This document shows, piece after piece, positions 307 through 9,761 of a stretch of DNA of 13,673 nucleotides. Source of the DNA: an uncultured Pseudomonadota bacterium. GTDB taxonomy: Bacteria; Pseudomonadota; Gammaproteobacteria; Burkholderiales; Burkholderiaceae_C. The stretch spans positions 1 through 13,673 of the forward strand of contig ONTY01000051.1 in the NCBI GenBank assembly GCA_900320815.1, written 5' to 3'. A program made the position numbers and the translations under genes. Under the pieces are notes generated by a model. It worked only from the letters and a program-made list of their open reading frames with translations. It had not been told where the DNA came from and did no database searches. Every line of letters begins with the position of its first letter. Positions within the stretch are counted from its first letter, which is position 1.

Positions 307-1376
307 GCCACCACCTCCTCGCACGCAGCGACGATGGCCTGCGTGGCACCAGTTTTTTGCATGTTTTTTGCCTTTACCGCGCATTCCACCAAGGCGTTGC
401 GCTCTGTTGTTTGAATGAAATCGGCCAGCTTTTGCGGCGTCAGCTCCTTTTGCTGCACCAGCCAGGCTGCGCCCTGCTCCGAGAGAAAGCGCGCGTTTGT
501 CGTCTGATGGTCGTCCACGGCGTGCGGGAACGGCACAAACAGCGCCGCCGCGCCCACAGCGGCAATTTCGCTGATGGTGCTGGCGCCGGCGCGGCACACC
601 ACCAGGTCGGCCTGCGCCAGCGCGCCGGCCATGTCGTCAATGAAGGGCACAAGCTCGCCCTGCACACCCGCGCGCTCATACGCGGCACGCAACGCCTCAA
701 GCTGCTTTTCGCCACTTTGGTGCGTGACGATGGGGCGCTTGTCTGCATCAATGAGCGCCAGCGCCTGCGGCACCATGTCATTGAGCGCCTGCGCGCCCAG
801 GCTGCCGCCCACCACCAGCAGGCGCAGCGCGCCGCTGCGCGCGGCAAAGCGCTCTTCTGGCGCCGCCTGCTGGCTGAACACGGCGCGCAGCGGATTGCCC
901 ACCCATTCGCCCTTTGGCAGTGCATTCGGAAACGCTGTAAACACGCGCCGCGCCACGCGCGAAAGAGTGCGGTTGGCCAGCCCGGGCACCGAGTTCTGCT
1001 CGTGCAGCAGCAGCGGCGTGCCCATCGCTGCACCCGCCAGCCCTGCGGGCACGCTGATGTAGCCGCCCATGCCGACGAGCACATTGGGGCGCACGCGCCG
1101 CAGCACGCGCACGCTTTGCGCCACAGCGCGCGCCAGACGCAGCGGCGCCAGCGCCATGGTGGAGAGTTTTTTGCCGCGCACGCCGCCAAAGTCCACCGCT
1201 TCAAAGGCAAAGCCCTGCGGCGGCACAAGCCGTGCCTCCATACCACCCGGTGCACCCAGCCAGTGCACACGCCAGCCCGCTTCGCGCAGCGCCTGCGCCA
1301 CGGCCAGCCCGGGGAAGATGTGCCCGCCCGTGCCGCCCGCCATCACCAGCGCGCATCTGTCCTGCACCGCGCTCAT
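303..1376 (-). CDS. murG: UDP-N-acetylglucosamine--N-acetylmuramyl-(pentapeptide) pyrophosphoryl-undecaprenol N-acetylglucosamine transferase
   Basis: MurG moves GlcNAc from UDP-GlcNAc onto lipid I to make lipid II on the inner face of the cytoplasmic membrane (GT28, GT-B fold). The product has 357 residues, normal for the family. Visible marks are the glycine-rich loop GGTGGH at residues 14-19, the [11 protein letters not shown] loop, [12 protein letters not shown], the GGSLGA loop that opens the C-terminal domain, and [15 protein letters not shown] followed by [14 protein letters not shown], which bind UDP-GlcNAc. The frame stays open upstream to about 1646, but that extension is the antisense of nothing and reads into ftsW copy 2. 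The start [15 protein letters not shown] at 1376 overlaps the ftsW copy 2 stop as ATGA, and its stop overlaps murC in the same way. Confidence 0.97.
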
Positions 1377-2557
1377 GGCCGCTCCTTCTCGACGTGCATC
1401 AATTCCTGGTTTTCTGCCTCCACGCGCAGCACCAGTGCGATGGCCACCATATTCGCCATGATGGATGAGGCGCCGTAGCTCATAAAGGGCAGCGCAAACC
1501 CGTTTGTCGGCAGCACGCCCAGGTTCACACCCATATGGAAAAACGCCTGTAGAGCCAACCACACACCCATACCCTGCGCCAGCAAGCCGGCAAACACACG
1601 CCCCTGTGCAATCGCACGCCAACCAATACCCATTATAAGACGCCACGCAAGCCAGCTAAACACAAGGGCAAGACATGCAATACCCATCAAACCAAACGCC
1701 TCACCAATGGCTGCCAGCAGGAAACTGTTGTGCGCTTCTGGCAAGTGCAGCGTTCCAATGCCATTGCCCAGCCCCACGCCAAACATTTCACCGCGCCCAA
1801 TGGCGATGAGCGCCGTAGAGAGCTGATAGCCCGCGCCTACTGCATCACTCCACGGGTCAAGGAAGGTAAACATCCTCCATCTCTGGTATTCCGAGCCCCA
1901 AAACATCGCCACGCATACAGCAAGCAGTGCTGCGACAAGCAGGACGACGCGCGCTTTGACGCCGCCCAGATACATCAGGCACAGCGCAACGGCCATCACC
2001 ACAGCAAACGCTCCCGTGTCCGGCTGCGCCAGCAGCAACGCGCCCACCATCGCCACCAGCGCCAATATGGGCGCGACAACGCGCCAAGAACCTGCTTGAG
2101 GCAGGCGCGCCAAGCGGCTGGCCGCAAACAGCACCACGACCAACTTGGCCAACTCAGAGGGCTGCACACGCAGCGAGCCGAGTGCAATCCAGCGGCGCGC
2201 GCCCGTGATTTTCGGCCCCAGCAGCGTCGCCGCCAGCAACAGCACCGTGCCAGCGGCCAGCCACAGCGCATTGCGCTCCCACCAGTGCATCGGCGCGTGA
2301 AACACCGCCACAGCCACCAGCAGCGACAGAGCAATCCACACGCCTTGCTGCAGCACGTCATAGTCAGGCGGGACATTGGCAAAGTAGCCGCTTGTGTGCT
2401 GCGTTGTTACCGCAGACACCATCACCGCCCCCCAGCACAGCAGCGCCAAGCACACCCAGAGCAACGGGCTTTTCAAGGGACGAGCAAATCGCCCAAATCG
2501 CCCGAGTCGCCCGAAGACCAGCACACCCTTGTCGTTCGCCATTTCTGCGCCGCTCAT
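1373..2557 (-). CDS. ftsW: second, divergent FtsW-like SEDS protein with altered catalytic loop (ftsW copy 2)
   Basis: A 394-residue multi-pass membrane protein of the SEDS family, directly downstream of and homologous to the complete ftsW next to it. About ten hydrophobic segments are visible. Family marks kept include GARRWIALG (119-127), QPSELAK (132-138), a TFLDPW motif (231-236), [15 protein letters not shown] and the C-terminal [19 protein letters not shown]. However, the loop that carries the catalytic aspartate in SEDS polymerases reads PEAHNSF (273-279) instead of PEAHTDF, so Asp is Ser278. GEE became GEA (285-287), LPTKG became LPTNG (Asn352) and SYGGSS became SYGASS. The N-terminus is basic and repetitive ([12 protein letters not shown]). 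ATGA overlaps link it to the ftsW copy before it and to murG after it. By established SEDS biochemistry, loss of this Asp should abolish glycan polymerisation. I infer a pseudoenzyme or a diverged paralog, not the main septal polymerase. Confidence 0.9.
2481..2516 (-). repeat. 9-bp tandem repeat inside the 5' end of ftsW copy 2
   Basis: On the minus strand three consecutive 9-base units TTCGGGCGA, CTCGGGCGA and TTTGGGCGA (2516 down to 2490) are followed by a degenerate fourth, TTTGCTCGT. They encode [16 protein letters not shown] repeats in the cytoplasmic N-terminal tail, just before the first membrane segment. Nothing comparable is present in the other ftsW copy. Confidence 0.8.
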
Positions 2558-3789
2558 GCCTGCGTCCCCCCGGTGTGCATCAGCTCCTGGCTTTCAGCTT
2601 CCACGCGCAGCACCAGCGCGATGGCCACCATGTTCGCCATGATGGACGAGCCGCCGTAGCTCATAAAGGGCAGCGTCAGTCCCTTGGTGGGCAGCGCCCC
2701 AAGGTTCACGCCAATGTTCACCAGCGCCTGAAAGCCCAGCCACACCGCCACGCCTTGCGCCACCAGACCGGAAAACACGCGATCCAGCGCAATGGCGCGT
2801 CTGCCAATAATCATGATGTGCCGTGTGAGCCACCAGAACATGACAATGACGCACACTAGCCCCACCAGCCCGAACTCCTCGCCCAGCACGGCCAGCAGAA
2901 AGTCGGTGTGCGCCTCGGGCAGCCAGTGGAGCTTTTCAATACTTCCCCCCAGTCCCACGCCGAACACCTCGCCGCGCCCGATGGCGATGAGCGAGTGCGT
3001 GAGCTGGTAGCCCTTGCCCAGCGCGTATTCCTTGCCCCACGGGTCAAGGTAGGCAAAGATGCGATCGCGCCGCCAGGGCGAGGCCCAAATCATCAGCGCC
3101 AGCACCGCCGCCAGCACCGCCGCCAGCGTAAAAAAGATGCGTGCGTTTACCCCGCCCAAAAACAGGATGCCCATTGCAATCACCGTAATCACGATGAAGG
3201 CACCCATATCTGGCTGCCCCAGCATCAGCGCCCCCATCACGCCCACCAGCATCAGCAGCGGCCCCACAGTGCGCACAAAGCTGGCATCCAGCCGCTGCAC
3301 CATGTAGCGGGACACGTAGAGCAGCACCGCCAATTTCGCCAGCTCCGAGGGCTGAAAGCGCAGCGGTCCGAGCGCAATCCAGCGGCGCGCACCATTGATG
3401 CGCACACCCACCAGCAGCACCACCACCAGCAGCAGTGTGGCACCGATGAACAGCCAGGGGGCGTTGCGTTCCCACCAGCTCATCGGCACCTGGAACGCCA
3501 TCAGCGCCACCAGCAGCGACAACACAATCCACATACCGTGCCGCAGCGCGTAGTAGTTGTGCGAGAGATTGGCAAAGCGCGGGTTATCTGGCAGCGCAAT
3601 AGTGGCCGAATACACCATCACCAGCCCCCAGCACAGCAGCGCCAGACACACCCAGATGAGCGAGCGGTCAAAGTCCGGCGCCGGCATTGGTGCGCTGCCC
3701 AGGTGCGCGGCGTATTGCGTGCCGCCCAGGCGCACCGGCGGCGGCATTTGGGGGGCGCTGTGCCGATCCCACAAATCGGAAACGTTCAT
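2554..3789 (-). CDS. ftsW: peptidoglycan glycosyltransferase FtsW (copy 1, catalytic residues present)
   Basis: FtsW is the SEDS-family septal glycan polymerase that works with FtsI (PBP3) and uses lipid II at the outer face of the cytoplasmic membrane. The product has 411 residues with a proline-rich cytoplasmic N-terminal tail of about 40 residues and about ten membrane segments. Marks seen are [20 protein letters not shown] (133-152), [21 protein letters not shown], the catalytic loop PEAHTDF with Asp296 followed by GEE (303-305), [10 protein letters not shown] and SYGGSS near the C-terminus. The frame is open back to 3828, but ATG 3789 has a very strong AAGGGGGGG ribosome binding site 2 bases upstream and overlaps the preceding small ORF stop as ATGA. 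Its stop overlaps copy 2 as ATGA. This is the copy expected to supply FtsW activity. Confidence 0.95.
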
Positions 3790-4001
3790 TGCCCCCCCTT
3801 TGTCACCACAGTGTCTGCTGTCAAGCAAGCACCGCCATCCATATACCCAGCAGCATCATCTTCACCTGCCCGCTTTATACGCGGGTATGAAGCACTATAC
3901 CCATGAAATACGGAAAGCGTGGCACCTGCCTGGTGCACAGCGCCAATCCGCCCGCACACCGTGGGTGCACCCAAAAGAACCAAAATGCTTGTCTGCACCA
4001 T
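3786..4001 (-). CDS. 71-codon ORF in the murD position, possible internally deleted murD remnant
   Basis: In a typical proteobacterial dcw cluster murD lies between mraY and ftsW. Here the slot holds only this 71-residue ORF. Its translation signals are excellent: the mraY stop is embedded in TGAGGAGAAAATG, giving an AGGAG site just before the ATG, and its own TGA overlaps the ftsW start as ATGA. The first third contains ILVLLGA and, later, AGATLSVF, which loosely resembles the VLVLGLGxSG...GAxVTV opening of MurD with the glycine loop damaged. The rest has no MurD motif and no P-loop, and I recognise no other family. No basic n-region or good lipobox is visible, so a signal peptide is unlikely. 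It is either a murD relic kept as a coupling leader or an unrelated small protein. That the ORF is translated is more likely than that it is functional. Confidence 0.45.
3869..3902. other. two mutually exclusive short hairpins between mraY and ftsW
   Basis: CCCGC (3869-3873) pairs with GCGGG (3881-3885) across a 7-base loop. GGGTAT (3883-3888) pairs perfectly with ATACCC (3897-3902) across an 8-base loop. The two stems share GGG at 3883-3885, so only one can form at a time. No T-run follows on either strand, so neither is a convincing terminator. Confidence 0.4.
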
Positions 4002-4011
4002 TTTCTCCTCA
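4002..4011 (-). promoter_or_regulatory. strong ribosome binding site overlapping the mraY stop codon
   Basis: On the minus strand the mraY stop TGA is followed by GGAGAAA and then ATG, so the Shine-Dalgarno AGGAG is made partly of the stop codon. This is one of the best ribosome binding sites in the window and it serves the 71-codon ORF that replaces murD. Confidence 0.7.
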
Positions 4012-5187
4012 CCGCAGTTTCAATGTGGACAGACCCAGCAAACACAACAGCATGGTGACAATCCAGAAACGCACCACGGTTTGCGTTTCCGACCAGCCGC
4101 CTTTTTCAAAATGATGGTGCAGCGGCGCCATGCGCAAAATGCGTCGCCCCTCGCCATAGCGGCGGCGCGTATATTTGAAATAGCCCACCTGCACAATGAC
4201 AGACAGAGCTTCTGCCACAAAAATGCCACCCATCACAGCCAGCACCAGCTCCTGGCGCACCACAATGGCTACCACGCCCAGCGCGCCGCCCAACGCCAGC
4301 GCCCCCACATCACCCATGAACACCTGCGCCGGGTGCGCGTTGAACCACAAAAATGCCAGCCCAGCGCCCGCCATCGCGGCGCAAAAAATCAGCAATTCGC
4401 CCGCCCCGGCAATATGGGGAATCAGCAGATATTTTGCAAACACCGCGCTGCCGCTGACATAGGAAAAAATACCCAGTGCCGTGCCAACCATCACCACCGG
4501 CATAATCGCCAGCCCGTCCAGCCCATCGGTAAAATTGACAGCGTTGCTCGCCCCCACTATCACCAGATAGCTCAAAATCATAAAACCGAGCACACCCAGC
4601 GGATACGCCACTTCCTTGAAAAACGGCAGCCATAAACCTGCCGCGTGCGGCAGCGTAATAGAAAAGCCGGAGCGCATCCAATCGATAAACAACCCCCATG
4701 CCTGCGCGCCACTGCTCCCAGAGATGGCAAACAGCAAGTACAGCGACGCTGCCAGCCCGATGAGCGATTGCCAGAAAAACTTCTCACGCGAGCGCATGCC
4801 CTCCGGGTCGTGCAGCGCCACCTTACGCCAGTCATCCACCCAGCCCACAGCGCCCAGCGCCAGCGTCACTGCCAGCACCACCCAAATGAAGCGGTTGGCC
4901 CAATCCGCCCACAGCAGCGTGGAAATGGTGATGGCCAACAGCACCAGTGCGCCGCCCATCGTTGGCGTGCCGCTTTTTGACAGGTGCGCCTGCACGCCGT
5001 ATTCGCGCACCGGTTGGCCAATTTTCAATTCCGTCAAGCGGCGAATCAGCCACGGCCCAAACGCCAGCCCAATGAGCAGCGCCGTCACCGCTGCCAGCAC
5101 CGCACGCAGCGTCAGGTATTGGAAAACGCGGAAAAACCCCAGCGAGGGAGAAAGCGTCTGCAGCCAGGCGGCGAGCGCGGTCAACAT
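4009..5187 (-). CDS. mraY: phospho-N-acetylmuramoyl-pentapeptide-transferase
   Basis: MraY is an integral membrane enzyme that transfers phospho-MurNAc-pentapeptide from UDP to undecaprenyl phosphate, making lipid I. The product has 392 residues with about ten membrane segments. Motifs seen in order are the paired aspartates in WVDDWRK (Asp118, Asp119), [10 protein letters not shown] (218-227), [12 protein letters not shown] (290-301), where many relatives have Ser in place of the first Ala, and the cytoplasmic histidine loop [13 protein letters not shown] (355-367). The start ATG at 5187 overlaps the murF stop (ATGTTGA), consistent with translational coupling. The normal next gene would be murD; here a small ORF follows after 7 bases. 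Confidence 0.97.
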
Positions 5188-7595
5188 GCTGCGCCCCCCC
5201 CTTGTTGCAGCGCCTGCACCAGGCGCTCCATGTGCATAAAGCGCGAGCCTTTGGCTGCCAGCACATCTACGCCCTCCAGCGCGCCGCGCGCCGCAGCAAT
5301 GAGCGCAGGCATATCGGCACAGTGCTGCGCGCCCGCGCCAAAGGCGTCTGCCGCGCTCTGCGCCAGTGCGCCCAGCGTAAGGAAGTGCTGCACGCCGCGC
5401 TCGCGCGCATACGCACCCACCTCGCGGTGAAAGGCTTCGCCCTGCGCGCCAACTTCACCCATGTCGCCCAACGCCAGGCAGCGCGCTCCAGGCAGCTCAG
5501 CCAGCACATCGATGAGCGCGCGCACCGAGTCCGGGTTAGCGTTGTAGCTGTCGTCAATGAGTGTGATGGCGCGCCCGCCGCATTTCAGCGCCAGCGTGCG
5601 CCCACGCCCGGGCAGCGGGCGGAAGTCCTGTAAACCCTGCTCTATCGCCTGCTGCGGCACGCCCGCCGCACTCGCGCAGGCGCACGCAGCCAGTGCGTTG
5701 AGTGCGTTGTGATGGCCTGGCGCGTGCAGCGCAAAGCGCGCCACGCCACCAGGCAGCTGCACCTCCATCTCCCAGGCGCCACCTTGCCAGCGGGCGCTGC
5801 GCGCAAAAACTTGCGCACCGGCTGATTGCTCACCAAACATGAGCACAGTGCCCGCGTTTGCGAGGCGCTGCCATGTGCCTTGATAGTCATCTCCTGCTGG
5901 AAACACCGCCACGCCATCAGCAGGTAGCGCGGCCAGCACCGCGCCGTTTTCTTCCGCCGCAGCCTGCACGCTGCCCATGAACTCCTGGTGCTCGCGCTGC
6001 GCGTTGTTCACCAGCGCCACTGTGGGTGCCGCCATGCGTGCCAGCTGCTCCATCTCGCCCGGGTGGTTCATACCCAGTTCCACCACCGCCAGGCGGTGCG
6101 CCGGACGCAAGCGCAGCAATGTGAGTGCCGCGCCGATGCTGTTGTTGAGGTTGCCGCGCGTGGCCAGTGCGGCGTCGCCCAGCCAGGCGCGACCTATGGC
6201 AGCCAGCATTTGCGTGACGGTGGTTTTGCCATTGCTGCCCGTCACGGCGATGAGCGGCAGCTTGAAACGCTGGCGCCAGCCGCGCGCCAATTCGCCCAGT
6301 GTCTGTTGCGTGTCGTCTGTCAGCACGCCGGGCAAACCACTGGCAGCAAGCTGCGCTGCCGCCTGCCGGCTGCACAGCGCCGCTGCTGCGCCCTGCTGCG
6401 CCACTTGCGGCAAGAAATCGGCGGCATCAAAACTCTCGCCCTTCAAAGCCACGAATAAATCGCCCTCTTGCAGCGTGCGCGAGTCCGTACTCACACGCTG
6501 GCAAATGCGCGCCCCGTCGCCCGTCAGCGCCGTCCCCGGCAGCATGGCGGCCACTTCGCCAAGGGGTAGGTTCATGCCCGCACGCGCCTGCAAAACGTTG
6601 CGCGCCATTTGTGCATCAGAAAACGGCAGGCGCCGCCCGCGCACGTCCTGATAGTCCTCATGCCCCTTGCCTGCGATGAGCACTATGTCCGCAGCAGCAG
6701 CTTCGCTGAGCGCATACGCAATAGCGCGCCCGCGATCCGGCTCCACGCACACGCGCGTCTGCGCGCCCAGCCCTCGCAGCACGTCCTCAATGATGGTGCC
6801 CGGCTCTTCCATGCGCGGGTTGTCACTGGTGAGCATGACTTCATCGGCTGCGGCCACTGCGGCGGCGCCCATGAGCGGGCGCTTGGTGCGGTCGCGATTG
6901 CCGCCGCAGCCAAACACCACATGCAGCCGCCCACCGCGCGCTTTGGTCAGCGGACGCAGTGCGTGCAGCACTTTTTCCAGCGCGTCTGGCGTGTGCGCGT
7001 AGTCCACCACGGCAAGCGGCGCTCCCTCCACCTCCACGCGCTGCAGGCGTCCGGGCACAGCGGGCAAATGGGCGCAGGCGTGCAAAGCATCCTCCAGCGA
7101 CACGCCCAGTGCACGCAAAGCACCCAATACGCCCAGCAAGTTGCTGACGTTGAACTCACCTGCCAGCACATTGGCGCTGCCACCAAATGGCAGCGCCTGC
7201 ACCATGCCTTCCTCGCGCACTGCCCAACGCAGCCCTGCGCTGCTGTGTTCAATGGCACTGGCAGACAGACGTGCCGGGGCGCCAGCGCGCGAAAGCGTCC
7301 ATACATCCAGCCCGCGCCGACGGCAATGCTCCGCAAGCTCTGCGCCACGCGCATCGTCCACGTTAATGACGGCCGCTTGCAGCGCAGGCCAATCAAACAG
7401 GCGCAGCTTGGCGCGCCAGTAGCTGTCCATATCGCCATGCCAGTCCAAGTGGTCTTGCGTGAAATTGGTGAACACCGCCACGCGAATGGCGCAGCCTTCC
7501 AGCCGCCGCTCTTCCAGTCCAATAGACGATGCCTCTATCGCGCACGAATGCACTCCGGCATCCACCCACGCGCGCAACTGCCGCTGCAGCCGCAC
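5181..7595 (-). CDS. murF: MurF (D-alanyl-D-alanine-adding ligase) fused behind the C-terminal part of MurE
   Basis: MurF adds D-Ala-D-Ala to UDP-MurNAc-tripeptide; MurE adds the diamino acid before it. From 7595 the frame encodes the MurE central and C-terminal domains ([51 protein letters not shown], then DNPRMEEP, the signature of meso-diaminopimelate-specific MurE, and AGKGHEDYQ). It then runs without a stop into MurF at Met6575 (464 residues) with the P-loop [32 protein letters not shown] and [11 protein letters not shown] MurE-MurF fusion is known in Bordetella and relatives. The MurF part looks complete. The GTG at 7595 is only the first possible in-frame start after a TAG at 7601-7599 and is unlikely to be native. 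The first 30% of MurE is in another frame (see the neighbouring pseudogene). MurF may still be made by internal initiation or coupling. Confidence 0.93.
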
Positions 7596-8016
7596 GGTCT
7601 ATGAGGCGGATGCGCTGATGTCCCGATAAGGCATGTGCCAGCCACCAGGCGCTGGACGTTTTGCCGTTGGTGCCCGTGAACGCCACCATATTCAGTCGCT
7701 GCGAAGGATGGCCATAAAACGCGCTGGCAATCTCCCCTGCGGCTACGTGCAAGCGCGCGTAACCAGCCACAGCCGGGTGGCTGGCCTCTGGCAAGTCATC
7801 TGGCGCACCGTCCAGTTCCATCAAACAGCCAGCGGCGCCCTGTGTGAGCGCCTGCGCCAAAAAGCTGCGCCCATCACACCACTCACCGGGCCAGGCAAAA
7901 AAACCGTCGCCCGCACCAACGCTGCGGCTGTCGGCACAAAGCTGCCGCACACCGCGTGCGCACAACCACTGCACAGCTTCGTCGGGCGTGTGCAGCACAG
8001 TCTTACATAGGTTCAT
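7393..8016 (-). pseudogene. murE: N-terminal fragment of MurE, separated from the rest by a deletion and frame change
   Basis: MurE ligates meso-diaminopimelate to UDP-MurNAc-L-Ala-D-Glu. This frame starts at ATG 8016, which overlaps the ftsI stop as ATGA. It encodes a normal N-terminal UDP-binding domain (CADSRSVGAGDGFFAWPG, DGRSFLAQA) and the ATP P-loop FTGTNGKTSSAWWLAHAL. MurE similarity ends near 7602 (…QRIRLI). It resumes at 7598 in the next frame with [14 protein letters not shown], behind a TAG. Compared with the family as I know it, the connecting stretch (about 25 residues, including the conserved GTLG and LTTPD region) is absent, so this is not a single-base slip. The present gap equals a deletion of length 3n+2. 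The out-of-frame tail to 7393 is meaningless. Because MurE is normally essential, either a second murE exists or the assembly is wrong here. Confidence 0.85.
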
Positions 8017-9761
8017 TGCTGCGCTCCTGCTGCTGCCGCCACGATTTCATTTTTGACGGCCAGGTCTGGCGGCACGCCAAGTGTGCGCAGCGTGTGTTGC
8101 ACCACCTGGCTAAACACGGGTGCCGCCACAGCGCCACCGTAGTACGTGCCCGCGCTTGGCTCATCAATCATCACGGCCACCACCACGCGTGGGTGCTCGA
8201 TAGGGGCAATACCGGTAAACCAGGCGCGGTAGCGGCTGGTGCTGTAGCCCTTGCCCACTTGTTTACGCGCAGTGCCGGACTTGCCGCCCACGGAATAGCC
8301 CTCGGTTTGTGCGCGCTGGCCTGTGCCGCCCTGCCCCACAGCCAGCTTCAACATACGTCGTACGGCGCGCGCGTTTTCTGGCGAAAACACCTGCACACCC
8401 CGCGCCTGCTGGCCATCGGGCACTTTCAGCAACGATGCGTCAATCACACGCCCATCGTTCGAGAACGCCGTATAGGAATGCGCAATTTGGAAGAGCGATG
8501 CCGATAAGCCGTAGCCGTATGACATCGTCGCCTGCTCCACCGGTCGCCAGCTTTTCCAGGGGCGCACACGTCCAGTGGCTGCGCCAGGGAAACTCAACTT
8601 GGGTCGCTTGCCATAGCCCAGCGCGTCATAGGTTTCCCACATTTGTTTTGGTGTGAGCATCCGCGCAATTTTGAGCGAGCCAACGTTGCTGGACTTCTGG
8701 ATAACCCCCTCCACGGTGAGCGCGCCGTAATTGTGCGTATCGCGCACCGTGAAACGGTCAATCTGGATGAAGCCAGGTGCCGTGTTGATGACGGTGCGCG
8801 GCGTGACTTTTTTTGCCTCCAGCGCCATTGCCACGGTAATGGGCTTCATCGTTGAGCCGGGTTCAAACTCATCCGTGAGCGCGGTGTTGCGCAGCTGTGC
8901 ACCTTTGAGCCGGCTGCGGTCATCAGGCGAATAGCTGGGGTAATTGGCCAGCGCCAGCACCTCGCCGCTGTGCGCGTCCAACACCACCACGCTGCCCGCA
9001 CGCGCCTTGTGCGCCCGCACCGCTTCGCGCAACCGTTGGTAGGCAAAAAACTGCACCTTGCTGTCAATGGAAAGCTGCACGTCTTTGCCATCAACCGGCA
9101 GGACGGCGTCCCCCACGGATTCCACCACGCGCCCAAGCCGGTCTTTGATGACGCGGCGCGAACCAGGGCGGCCTGCGAGCTGTTTTTCAAACGCCAACTC
9201 CACGCCCTCCAGCCCTTTTTCCTGCCCTTTGTCCCCTATGCCGGTAAAGCCCACCACGTGTGCCAGTGCCTCGCCTTCCGGATAGCGGCGCTTGTAGCTT
9301 TTGTCCTGATGCACGCCCGCGATGTCCAGCGCAGCAATCTCGCGCGCCACCGGCACATCGACTTGGCGGCGCAGCCAAACAAAGTTTTTGCTTTCATCGG
9401 CGAGCTTGGCGCGCAGTTCAGCTTCTTTCATCTCCAGCAACCGTGCCAACTCGACCAGTTTCTCCGAGTCACGCTCCACATCTTCGGGATCAGCCCAGAT
9501 ATCGAACGCCTCCACGCTCGATGCCAGCAACAAACCATTGCGATCCAGGATGCGTCCACGGCCAGCCGGTAATTCCAGCGTGCGCGTAAAGCGTGCTGTG
9601 CCCTGTTTCTGGAAAAACTCGTTGTCAAATACCTGTACGTACGCTGCACGCCCAATCAGCCCGGCAAACGCCAGCGCCAACAGCGCCACGATGAACTTGC
9701 TACGCCACACCGGTGTGCGCATGGCCAGCAGCGCGCGGCTGCCATAGCGGATTCCCATCAT
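8013..9761 (-). CDS. ftsI: peptidoglycan D,D-transpeptidase FtsI (PBP3)
   Basis: FtsI is the class B penicillin-binding protein that crosslinks septal peptidoglycan in the periplasm, working with FtsW and the FtsQLB complex. The product has 582 residues. It has a short cytoplasmic tail, one membrane anchor (about residues 22-42), a non-catalytic domain with GRGRILDRNG (67-76), and a transpeptidase domain with EPGSTMKP (active-site Ser303 and Lys306), SSN (357-359) and KSGT (494-497). YYGGAVAAPVF near the C-terminus is also typical. The start ATG at 9761 overlaps the ftsL stop as ATGA; the protein begins MMGIRYGS. Its stop overlaps murE. All catalytic residues are present and the length is normal. 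Confidence 0.98.
   Translation of the reverse strand: MMGIRYGSRALLAMRTPVWRSKFIVALLALAFAGLIGRAAYVQVFDNEFFQKQGTARFTRTLELPAGRGRILDRNGLLLASSVEAFDIWADPEDVERDSEKLVELARLLEMKEAELRAKLADESKNFVWLRRQVDVPVAREIAALDIAGVHQDKSYKRRYPEGEALAHVVGFTGIGDKGQEKGLEGVELAFEKQLAGRPGSRRVIKDRLGRVVESVGDAVLPVDGKDVQLSIDSKVQFFAYQRLREAVRAHKARAGSVVVLDAHSGEVLALANYPSYSPDDRSRLKGAQLRNTALTDEFEPGSTMKPITVAMALEAKKVTPRTVINTAPGFIQIDRFTVRDTHNYGALTVEGVIQKSSNVGSLKIARMLTPKQMWETYDALGYGKRPKLSFPGAATGRVRPWKSWRPVEQATMSYGYGLSASLFQIAHSYTAFSNDGRVIDASLLKVPDGQQARGVQVFSPENARAVRRMLKLAVGQGGTGQRAQTEGYSVGGKSGTARKQVGKGYSTSRYRAWFTGIAPIEHPRVVVAVMIDEPSAGTYYGGAVAAPVFSQVVQHTLRTLGVPPDLAVKNEIVAAAAGAQQ

Follow-up and report, generated by a model that had tools for sequence, protein, structure and literature searches.

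A tandem ftsW pair in the dcw operon of an Ottowia-related bacterium, with a second copy that is a candidate SEDS pseudoenzyme

The window analysed here is contig C200, a 13,673 bp stretch from a draft assembly (G000; 2.10 Mb in 339 contigs, 81% complete) of a bacterium related to Ottowia, its relatives being placed in that genus by the source names of the database entries. The window carries a dcw operon on its minus strand, in the order mraZ, rsmH, ftsL, ftsI, murE-murF, mraY, ftsW1, ftsW2, murG and a partial murC. The FtsI, MurEF and FtsW proteins were identified by profile and the remaining dcw genes were named from their sequence and order. The subject of this report is the pair of ftsW genes. 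The stop codon of ftsW1 overlaps the start codon of ftsW2 as ATGA, and a second ATGA joins the end of ftsW2 to the start of murG (Table 1). An AAGGAG stretch inside the 3' end of ftsW2 could be the ribosome site of murG. A search for a promoter or terminator between the two copies gave one promoter-like and one terminator-like site in positions 1200-4300, not above what shuffled sequences give.

Both proteins exceed the gathering cut-off of PF01098 (26.4 bits), and by this score FtsW2 belongs to the SEDS family. The curated cut-off of TIGR02614, the FtsW equivalog (337.5 bits), is passed by FtsW1 and not by FtsW2. The predicted model of FtsW2 has the SEDS fold. Compared with the annotated E. 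coli order mraY-murD-ftsW-murG-murC, ftsW2 adjoins murG and thus stands in the dcw position of an ftsW. The assembly encodes one more SEDS protein, the third, which groups with RodA.

The two copies differ at the active site. FtsW1 has the motifs PEAHTDF...GEE, LPTKG and SYGGSS, and FtsW2 has PEAHNSF...GEA, LPTNG and SYGASS; the DPW motif is retained in both. Alignment with E. coli K-12 FtsW places the catalytic D297 at D296 of copy 1 and at S278 of copy 2. FtsW2 therefore lacks the Asp of the fourth extracellular loop that marks a SEDS glycosyltransferase. Four further E. coli positions, R243, E306, K370 and G381, are changed in copy 2 (Table 1), which also has Thr at L198, and most residues of the lipid II cavity (E. 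coli numbering) are retained. The first-pass annotation of this sequence had described two intact SEDS genes in direct tandem inside the dcw operon, joined by ATGA, had listed the same motif differences and had equated the changed loop residue with E. coli D297. Both reading frames, the overlap, the motifs and the residue assignment proved correct. It had also proposed a comparison of the loop residue across relatives, and there the Asp is near-universal: it is present in 120 of the 122 proteins of a first search, only copy 2 and its near-copy P0003 lacking it, and a larger, partly redundant set has it in 230 of 231 other FtsW rows and in 7/7 RodA rows. The sole other row of the 231 without it is a metagenomic FtsW, P0186, with Ala at that position (LPEAHTAF) and with GEE, LPTKG and SYGGSA intact.

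Table 1. Features of the tandem ftsW pair and neighbouring elements; positions are those of the window.
Feature	Positions	Strand	Remarks
ftsW1 (copy 1, 411 aa), canonical FtsW	2554-3789	-	PF01098 328.8 bits; NCBIfam TIGR02614 373.3
ftsW2 (copy 2, 394 aa), SEDS paralogue without the catalytic Asp	1373-2557	-	PF01098 261.5 bits; TIGR02614 284.2
ATGA overlap, ftsW1 stop / ftsW2 start	2554-2557	-	
ATGA overlap, ftsW2 stop / murG start	1373-1376	-	
Catalytic Asp296 codon, copy 1	2902-2904	-	residue mapping to E. coli FtsW
Asn277-Ser278 codons, copy 2	1724-1729	-	at E. coli T296-D297
Gln225 codon, copy 2	1883-1885	-	at E. coli R243
Ala287 codon, copy 2	1697-1699	-	at E. coli E306 (GEE to GEA)
Asn352 codon, copy 2	1502-1504	-	at E. 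coli K370
Ala363 codon, copy 2	1469-1471	-	at E. coli G381
ftsI	8013-9761	-	candidate partner of both FtsW; PF00905 at 8100-8996
71-codon open reading frame in the place of murD	3786-4001	-	TGA overlaps the ATG of ftsW1

Copy 2 has been maintained as a membrane protein. Its frame is free of stops throughout, and six whole-codon length differences, counted by eye, lie in the core aligned with the E. coli protein. A stop-codon simulation at t 0.55 gave a probability of no stop of 0.0005 at GC 0.6; since this rises to 0.0365 at GC 0.8, a simulation of the substitution pattern was relied on instead. Copy 1 was evolved neutrally to the same divergence in 1000 runs at each of two base compositions. 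No new proline was observed in the membrane segments, against simulated means of 10.0 and 12.7; the hydropathy of copy 2 is 1.56 (copy 1, 1.62; simulated means 1.00 and 0.94), and its changes have a BLOSUM62 score of -0.09, against -0.78 and -0.83. No simulation attained any of these three values. New charges are few (3, simulated means 14.2 and 13.6) and are within the simulated range at GC 0.8, and the total charged (14) and polar (27) residues of the membrane segments fall inside the simulated ranges. The G+C content at third codon positions is 0.713 in copy 2, within the 0.64-0.88 of the other genes of the window. The mismatch with the neutral pattern shows that selection preserved copy 2 as a membrane protein throughout most of its past; the result is compatible with a constraint that was lost only very recently. 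Thus ftsW2 has neither the stops or frameshifts nor the neutral substitution pattern of a pseudogene, and it has what characterizes a pseudoenzyme paralogue, a lost catalytic residue in an intact, maintained protein.

The two copies are 57% identical to each other. Copy 1 is 84% identical to P0006, the nearest FtsW of another species, and copy 2 is 52-57% identical to each FtsW compared. A tree with FtsW and RodA and a dN/dS ratio for copy 2 had both been proposed at first pass. In the 60-row tree, which drew on 22 P proteins and excluded the fragments or near-copies L029, L051, L038 and L009, copy 2 is placed with FtsW sequences from its own lineage, namely copy 1 and the group of P0006 and the genome G011 (node 87/92, open). 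A foreign origin of ftsW2 was rejected on this grouping, though the node is open. The stem of copy 2 has 2.46 changes per column and that of copy 1 has 0.16, a difference of about 15-fold. Synonymous distance between the copies is 0.86 and nonsynonymous distance 0.33. Recent gene conversion was also rejected, since in windows of 40 codons the synonymous difference between the copies never falls below 0.35-0.38. Codon analyses used 8 chosen sequences, 389 codons and a purpose-written branch model on three topologies, with one start point each and the outgroup order fixed by hand. On these topologies the dN/dS ratio (omega) of copy 2 is 0.356, 0.381 and 0.339, compared with 0.083-0.086 for the background, 0.096-0.136 for copy 1 and 0.204-0.249 for the G011 gene; omega = 1 on copy 2 is rejected (2dlnL 32.4, 18.4 and 32.6). 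In the best of the topologies, which leads by 4 to 9 log units, copy 2 pairs with the G011 gene; the duplication may therefore predate the split from G011, with a loss in G011.

The arrangement is rare. All 29 genomes of the genus set, some of which are incomplete and a few of which show no FtsW, have a PF01098 match, and two adjacent FtsW genes occur in this assembly only; where G001, G012 and G015 have a third PF01098 match, it is a fragment or resembles RodA. Among 250 family genomes 247 match ftsW2 at E 1e-50, with only the present assembly matching twice, and all 150 order genomes match ftsW1 at E 1e-62, two matches being seen here and in G337 only; a second copy that had diverged still further would escape both thresholds. 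The two strong FtsW matches of G337 lie on separate contigs (C7 and C9) and reflect either a second FtsW or contamination. The tandem is thus found in 1/150 order genomes, that of the window itself. Of the 120 matches listed for ftsW2, P0003 alone is a close relative, being 98.7% identical, with 5 differences in 394 residues. Relatives riddled with stops had been named at first pass as the mark of a decaying duplicate; P0003 is full length. Its cluster has 8 member sequences, perhaps including the protein of the window itself, and a longest contig of 15,117 bp, exceeding the window. The matches listed after P0003, near 58% identity, have the Asp. No ftsW2-like protein is among the matches listed from the source of P0006 or of P0205, a MurEF (longest contig 10,614 bp for both). 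A near-copy of ftsW1, P0008, is four residues short inside a repeated stretch, which is a repeat slip or an assembly effect.

Other parts of the operon have features of their own. The ftsI of the window is the only one of the four transpeptidase matches of the assembly found in a dcw setting; the other three were taken, by frame length alone, for penicillin-binding protein 2 and class A enzymes. A second ftsI serving ftsW2 was looked for and rejected, one of the four matches being in a dcw operon of this 81% complete genome. murD is not at its usual place between mraY and ftsW1, where it is present in G011. The 71-codon frame found there, in a region (3786-4011, minus strand) that carries a ribosome-site-like GAGGAG, is perhaps a remnant of the start of a former murD. 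A different murD lies elsewhere in the assembly (L061:6650-7891, contig C223; TIGR01087 253.4, cut-off 211.95). It is 26% identical to the MurD of G011, and a search of the other 28 genus genomes at E 1e-20 gave no match; presuming that C223 is correctly binned, a replacement of the native murD by transfer is possible. The murE part of the murE-murF fusion (5181-8016, minus strand) is interrupted, with a deletion and a frameshift between open reading frames at 7393-8016 and 5181-7595. The database holds an uninterrupted MurEF homologue of 973 aa, 99.6% identical over 804 aa, in a cluster of 11 members. The break reflects either strain variation or faulty assembly and, since the intact homologue exists, is no evidence of general operon decay, an explanation that was rejected.

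The analysis shows the tandem arrangement, the loss of conserved residues, a predicted SEDS fold and a non-neutral maintenance of copy 2 over most of its history. We tentatively prefer to read ftsW2 as a duplicate particular to its lineage that was preserved as a folded SEDS protein, most likely a pseudo-polymerase that engages FtsI and/or lipid II. A tandem duplication of ftsW in a single small Ottowia-like lineage would have left FtsW1 with the polymerase role. FtsW2 would have lost the catalytic Asp and other conserved residues while being preserved as a SEDS membrane protein with its multi-helix fold, its synthesis tied to that of FtsW1 and MurG by the ATGA overlaps. Such a protein would be unable to polymerise glycan. 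By analogy with dominant-negative FtsW of E. coli, the likeliest mechanism is that it still engages FtsI and/or lipid II and so may limit or modulate septal synthesis by FtsW1-FtsI. In its specific form, with FtsW2 as a natural, catalytically dead pseudo-SEDS that either competes for FtsI and lipid II or joins them in one complex and in this way governs how fast or when septal wall is made, the proposal is advanced with somewhat more reserve. The first-pass annotation had already suggested a pseudo-polymerase; the intact, coupled paralogue that lost its Asp and was kept as a membrane protein stands, and the role as regulator, partner or decoy is a proposal.

A number of observations weigh against this proposal, and several of them speak for its main rival, that ftsW2 is a tolerated, weakly constrained duplicate without a role of its own, perhaps on its way out, its frame kept by coupling to murG and its membrane character kept because a misfolded protein is harmful. 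The tandem is known from one species-level lineage only. The omega of copy 2 is about four times the background, and its stem is long. The loss of conservation is large and protein-wide: counted over 231 FtsW rows (partly redundant; L029, L051 and L038 omitted), copy 2 differs at 40 of the 122 columns that are at least 99.5% conserved, with gaps included in the count, and copy 1 differs at 2 of them. Copy 2 is altered at 31-33% of the positions in the two best conserved classes and at 94% in the most variable one. Of the five residues that distinguish it from P0003, two are at positions at least 99% conserved in FtsW. With segment borders set by hand from the model, the fourth and fifth extracellular loops (ECL4 and ECL5) have 15/51 conserved positions changed against 35/106 elsewhere (Fisher p 0.72), that is, no concentration at the active site. 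According to excerpts of PMC7614612, FtsI is touched in the P. aeruginosa complex by transmembrane segments TM8 and TM9, and FtsL by TM1 and EC1. A better preservation of the FtsI-facing TM8/TM9 was sought and rejected (5/25 against 45/132 changed, p 0.24, not significant), and the FtsL-facing TM1/ECL1/TM2 are more changed (10/17 against 40/140, p 0.024). Single segments range from 1/10 in ECL2 (contrast p 0.17) and 1/9 in each of TM8 and TM10 to 45-100% in TM1, TM2, TM4 and TM6. These contrasts are weak, and the loss is therefore general, not confined to the active site. Individual substitutions also tell less than they might: RodA rows naturally have Gln at the R243 position (7/7), and in the available part of PMC8765783 T296A is harmless in E. 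coli and nine purified variants are mentioned, their identities not being stated there. The active-site loops have low confidence in the model of copy 2 and only somewhat better confidence in that of copy 1, and were not used. The overlap with murG and the possible murG ribosome site also fit a tolerated duplicate, which we regard as quite possible. It is opposed by the non-neutral substitution pattern and by an omega below 1, and coupling alone does not demand conservative substitutions. Close relatives differ at 5 of 394 residues in FtsW2, at one residue plus a four-residue deletion in FtsW1 and at 3 of 804 in MurEF, so that copy 2 is only a few-fold faster, a weak comparison as the strain pairs are perhaps different.

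The other alternatives carry less weight. A new biochemical role, with another lipid-linked substrate or a different penicillin-binding protein in place of modulation of FtsW1, is unlikely, as most lipid II cavity residues are retained and the gene is locked in the dcw operon with no new partner gene adjoining. An artefact that joined genes of different strains or species in one contig would suit a fragmented, incomplete draft in which murE is interrupted despite the intact homologue. It is highly improbable, however: both flanks are equally near to G011 (MraY 90.6%, MurG 90.2%, the MurC part 93.1%), both junctions are clean ATGA overlaps, and the near-copy P0003 belongs to a cluster with a contig longer than the window, although its adjacency to ftsW1 there was not seen. 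FtsW2 could still be a polymerase with another residue replacing the Asp, its fold and much of its cavity being retained, but this is the most remote of the readings, with the Asp present in virtually all other FtsW and RodA rows, a Ser that cannot substitute for its charge, and E306, K370 and G381 altered as well.

If the pseudo-polymerase proposal is true, FtsW2 would be the first regulatory SEDS pseudoenzyme, as far as literature searches reach. Overproduced inactive FtsW mutants block division in E. coli (excerpts of PMC8765783); a genome that keeps such a protein beside the active gene must therefore either have disarmed it or found a use for it. Binding of FtsI by FtsW2 would offer a natural handle on the gating of FtsW-FtsI activity; if there is no such binding, the changed positions would mark the surfaces that an inactive FtsW has to lose before it can do no harm. 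Both outcomes would inform on an essential enzyme of the bacterial divisome. The searched open-access literature yielded neither a SEDS pseudoenzyme nor a dcw operon in which a dead ftsW copy stands in tandem with another, in line with the earlier statement that no such dcw cluster was known. ftsW2 is thus a candidate SEDS pseudoenzyme in a real and rare arrangement, while paralogous pseudoenzymes are an already known kind.

Among known systems, FtsW itself (E. coli; P. aeruginosa structures 8bh1 and 8p1u) shares with FtsW2 the PF01098 family, the predicted fold, the dcw position before murG and most cavity residues. FtsW2 differs from it by the loss of the Asp, the changes at E306, K370, G381 and R243, and the sub-cut-off NCBIfam score. 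The available part of PMC8765783 describes stable dominant-negative FtsW mutants of E. coli with substitutions at D297, R243 and G381, three positions that are likewise changed in FtsW2; those are laboratory single mutants, whereas FtsW2 is the product of a natural gene beside an intact ftsW and has many more changes. Listeria and Enterococcus also have more than one FtsW per genome, but their paralogues are described, in excerpts of PMC6686043, PMC12724132 and PMC7154730, as enzymes or glycosyltransferases, unlike FtsW2, a comparison made by description only. Trypanosomatids likewise keep an inactive paralogue beside an active enzyme (PMC3663545 and PMC5201418, in part); that pair belongs to another enzyme family and its partner activation is reported there as proven, whereas the role of FtsW2 is put forward here from its sequence.
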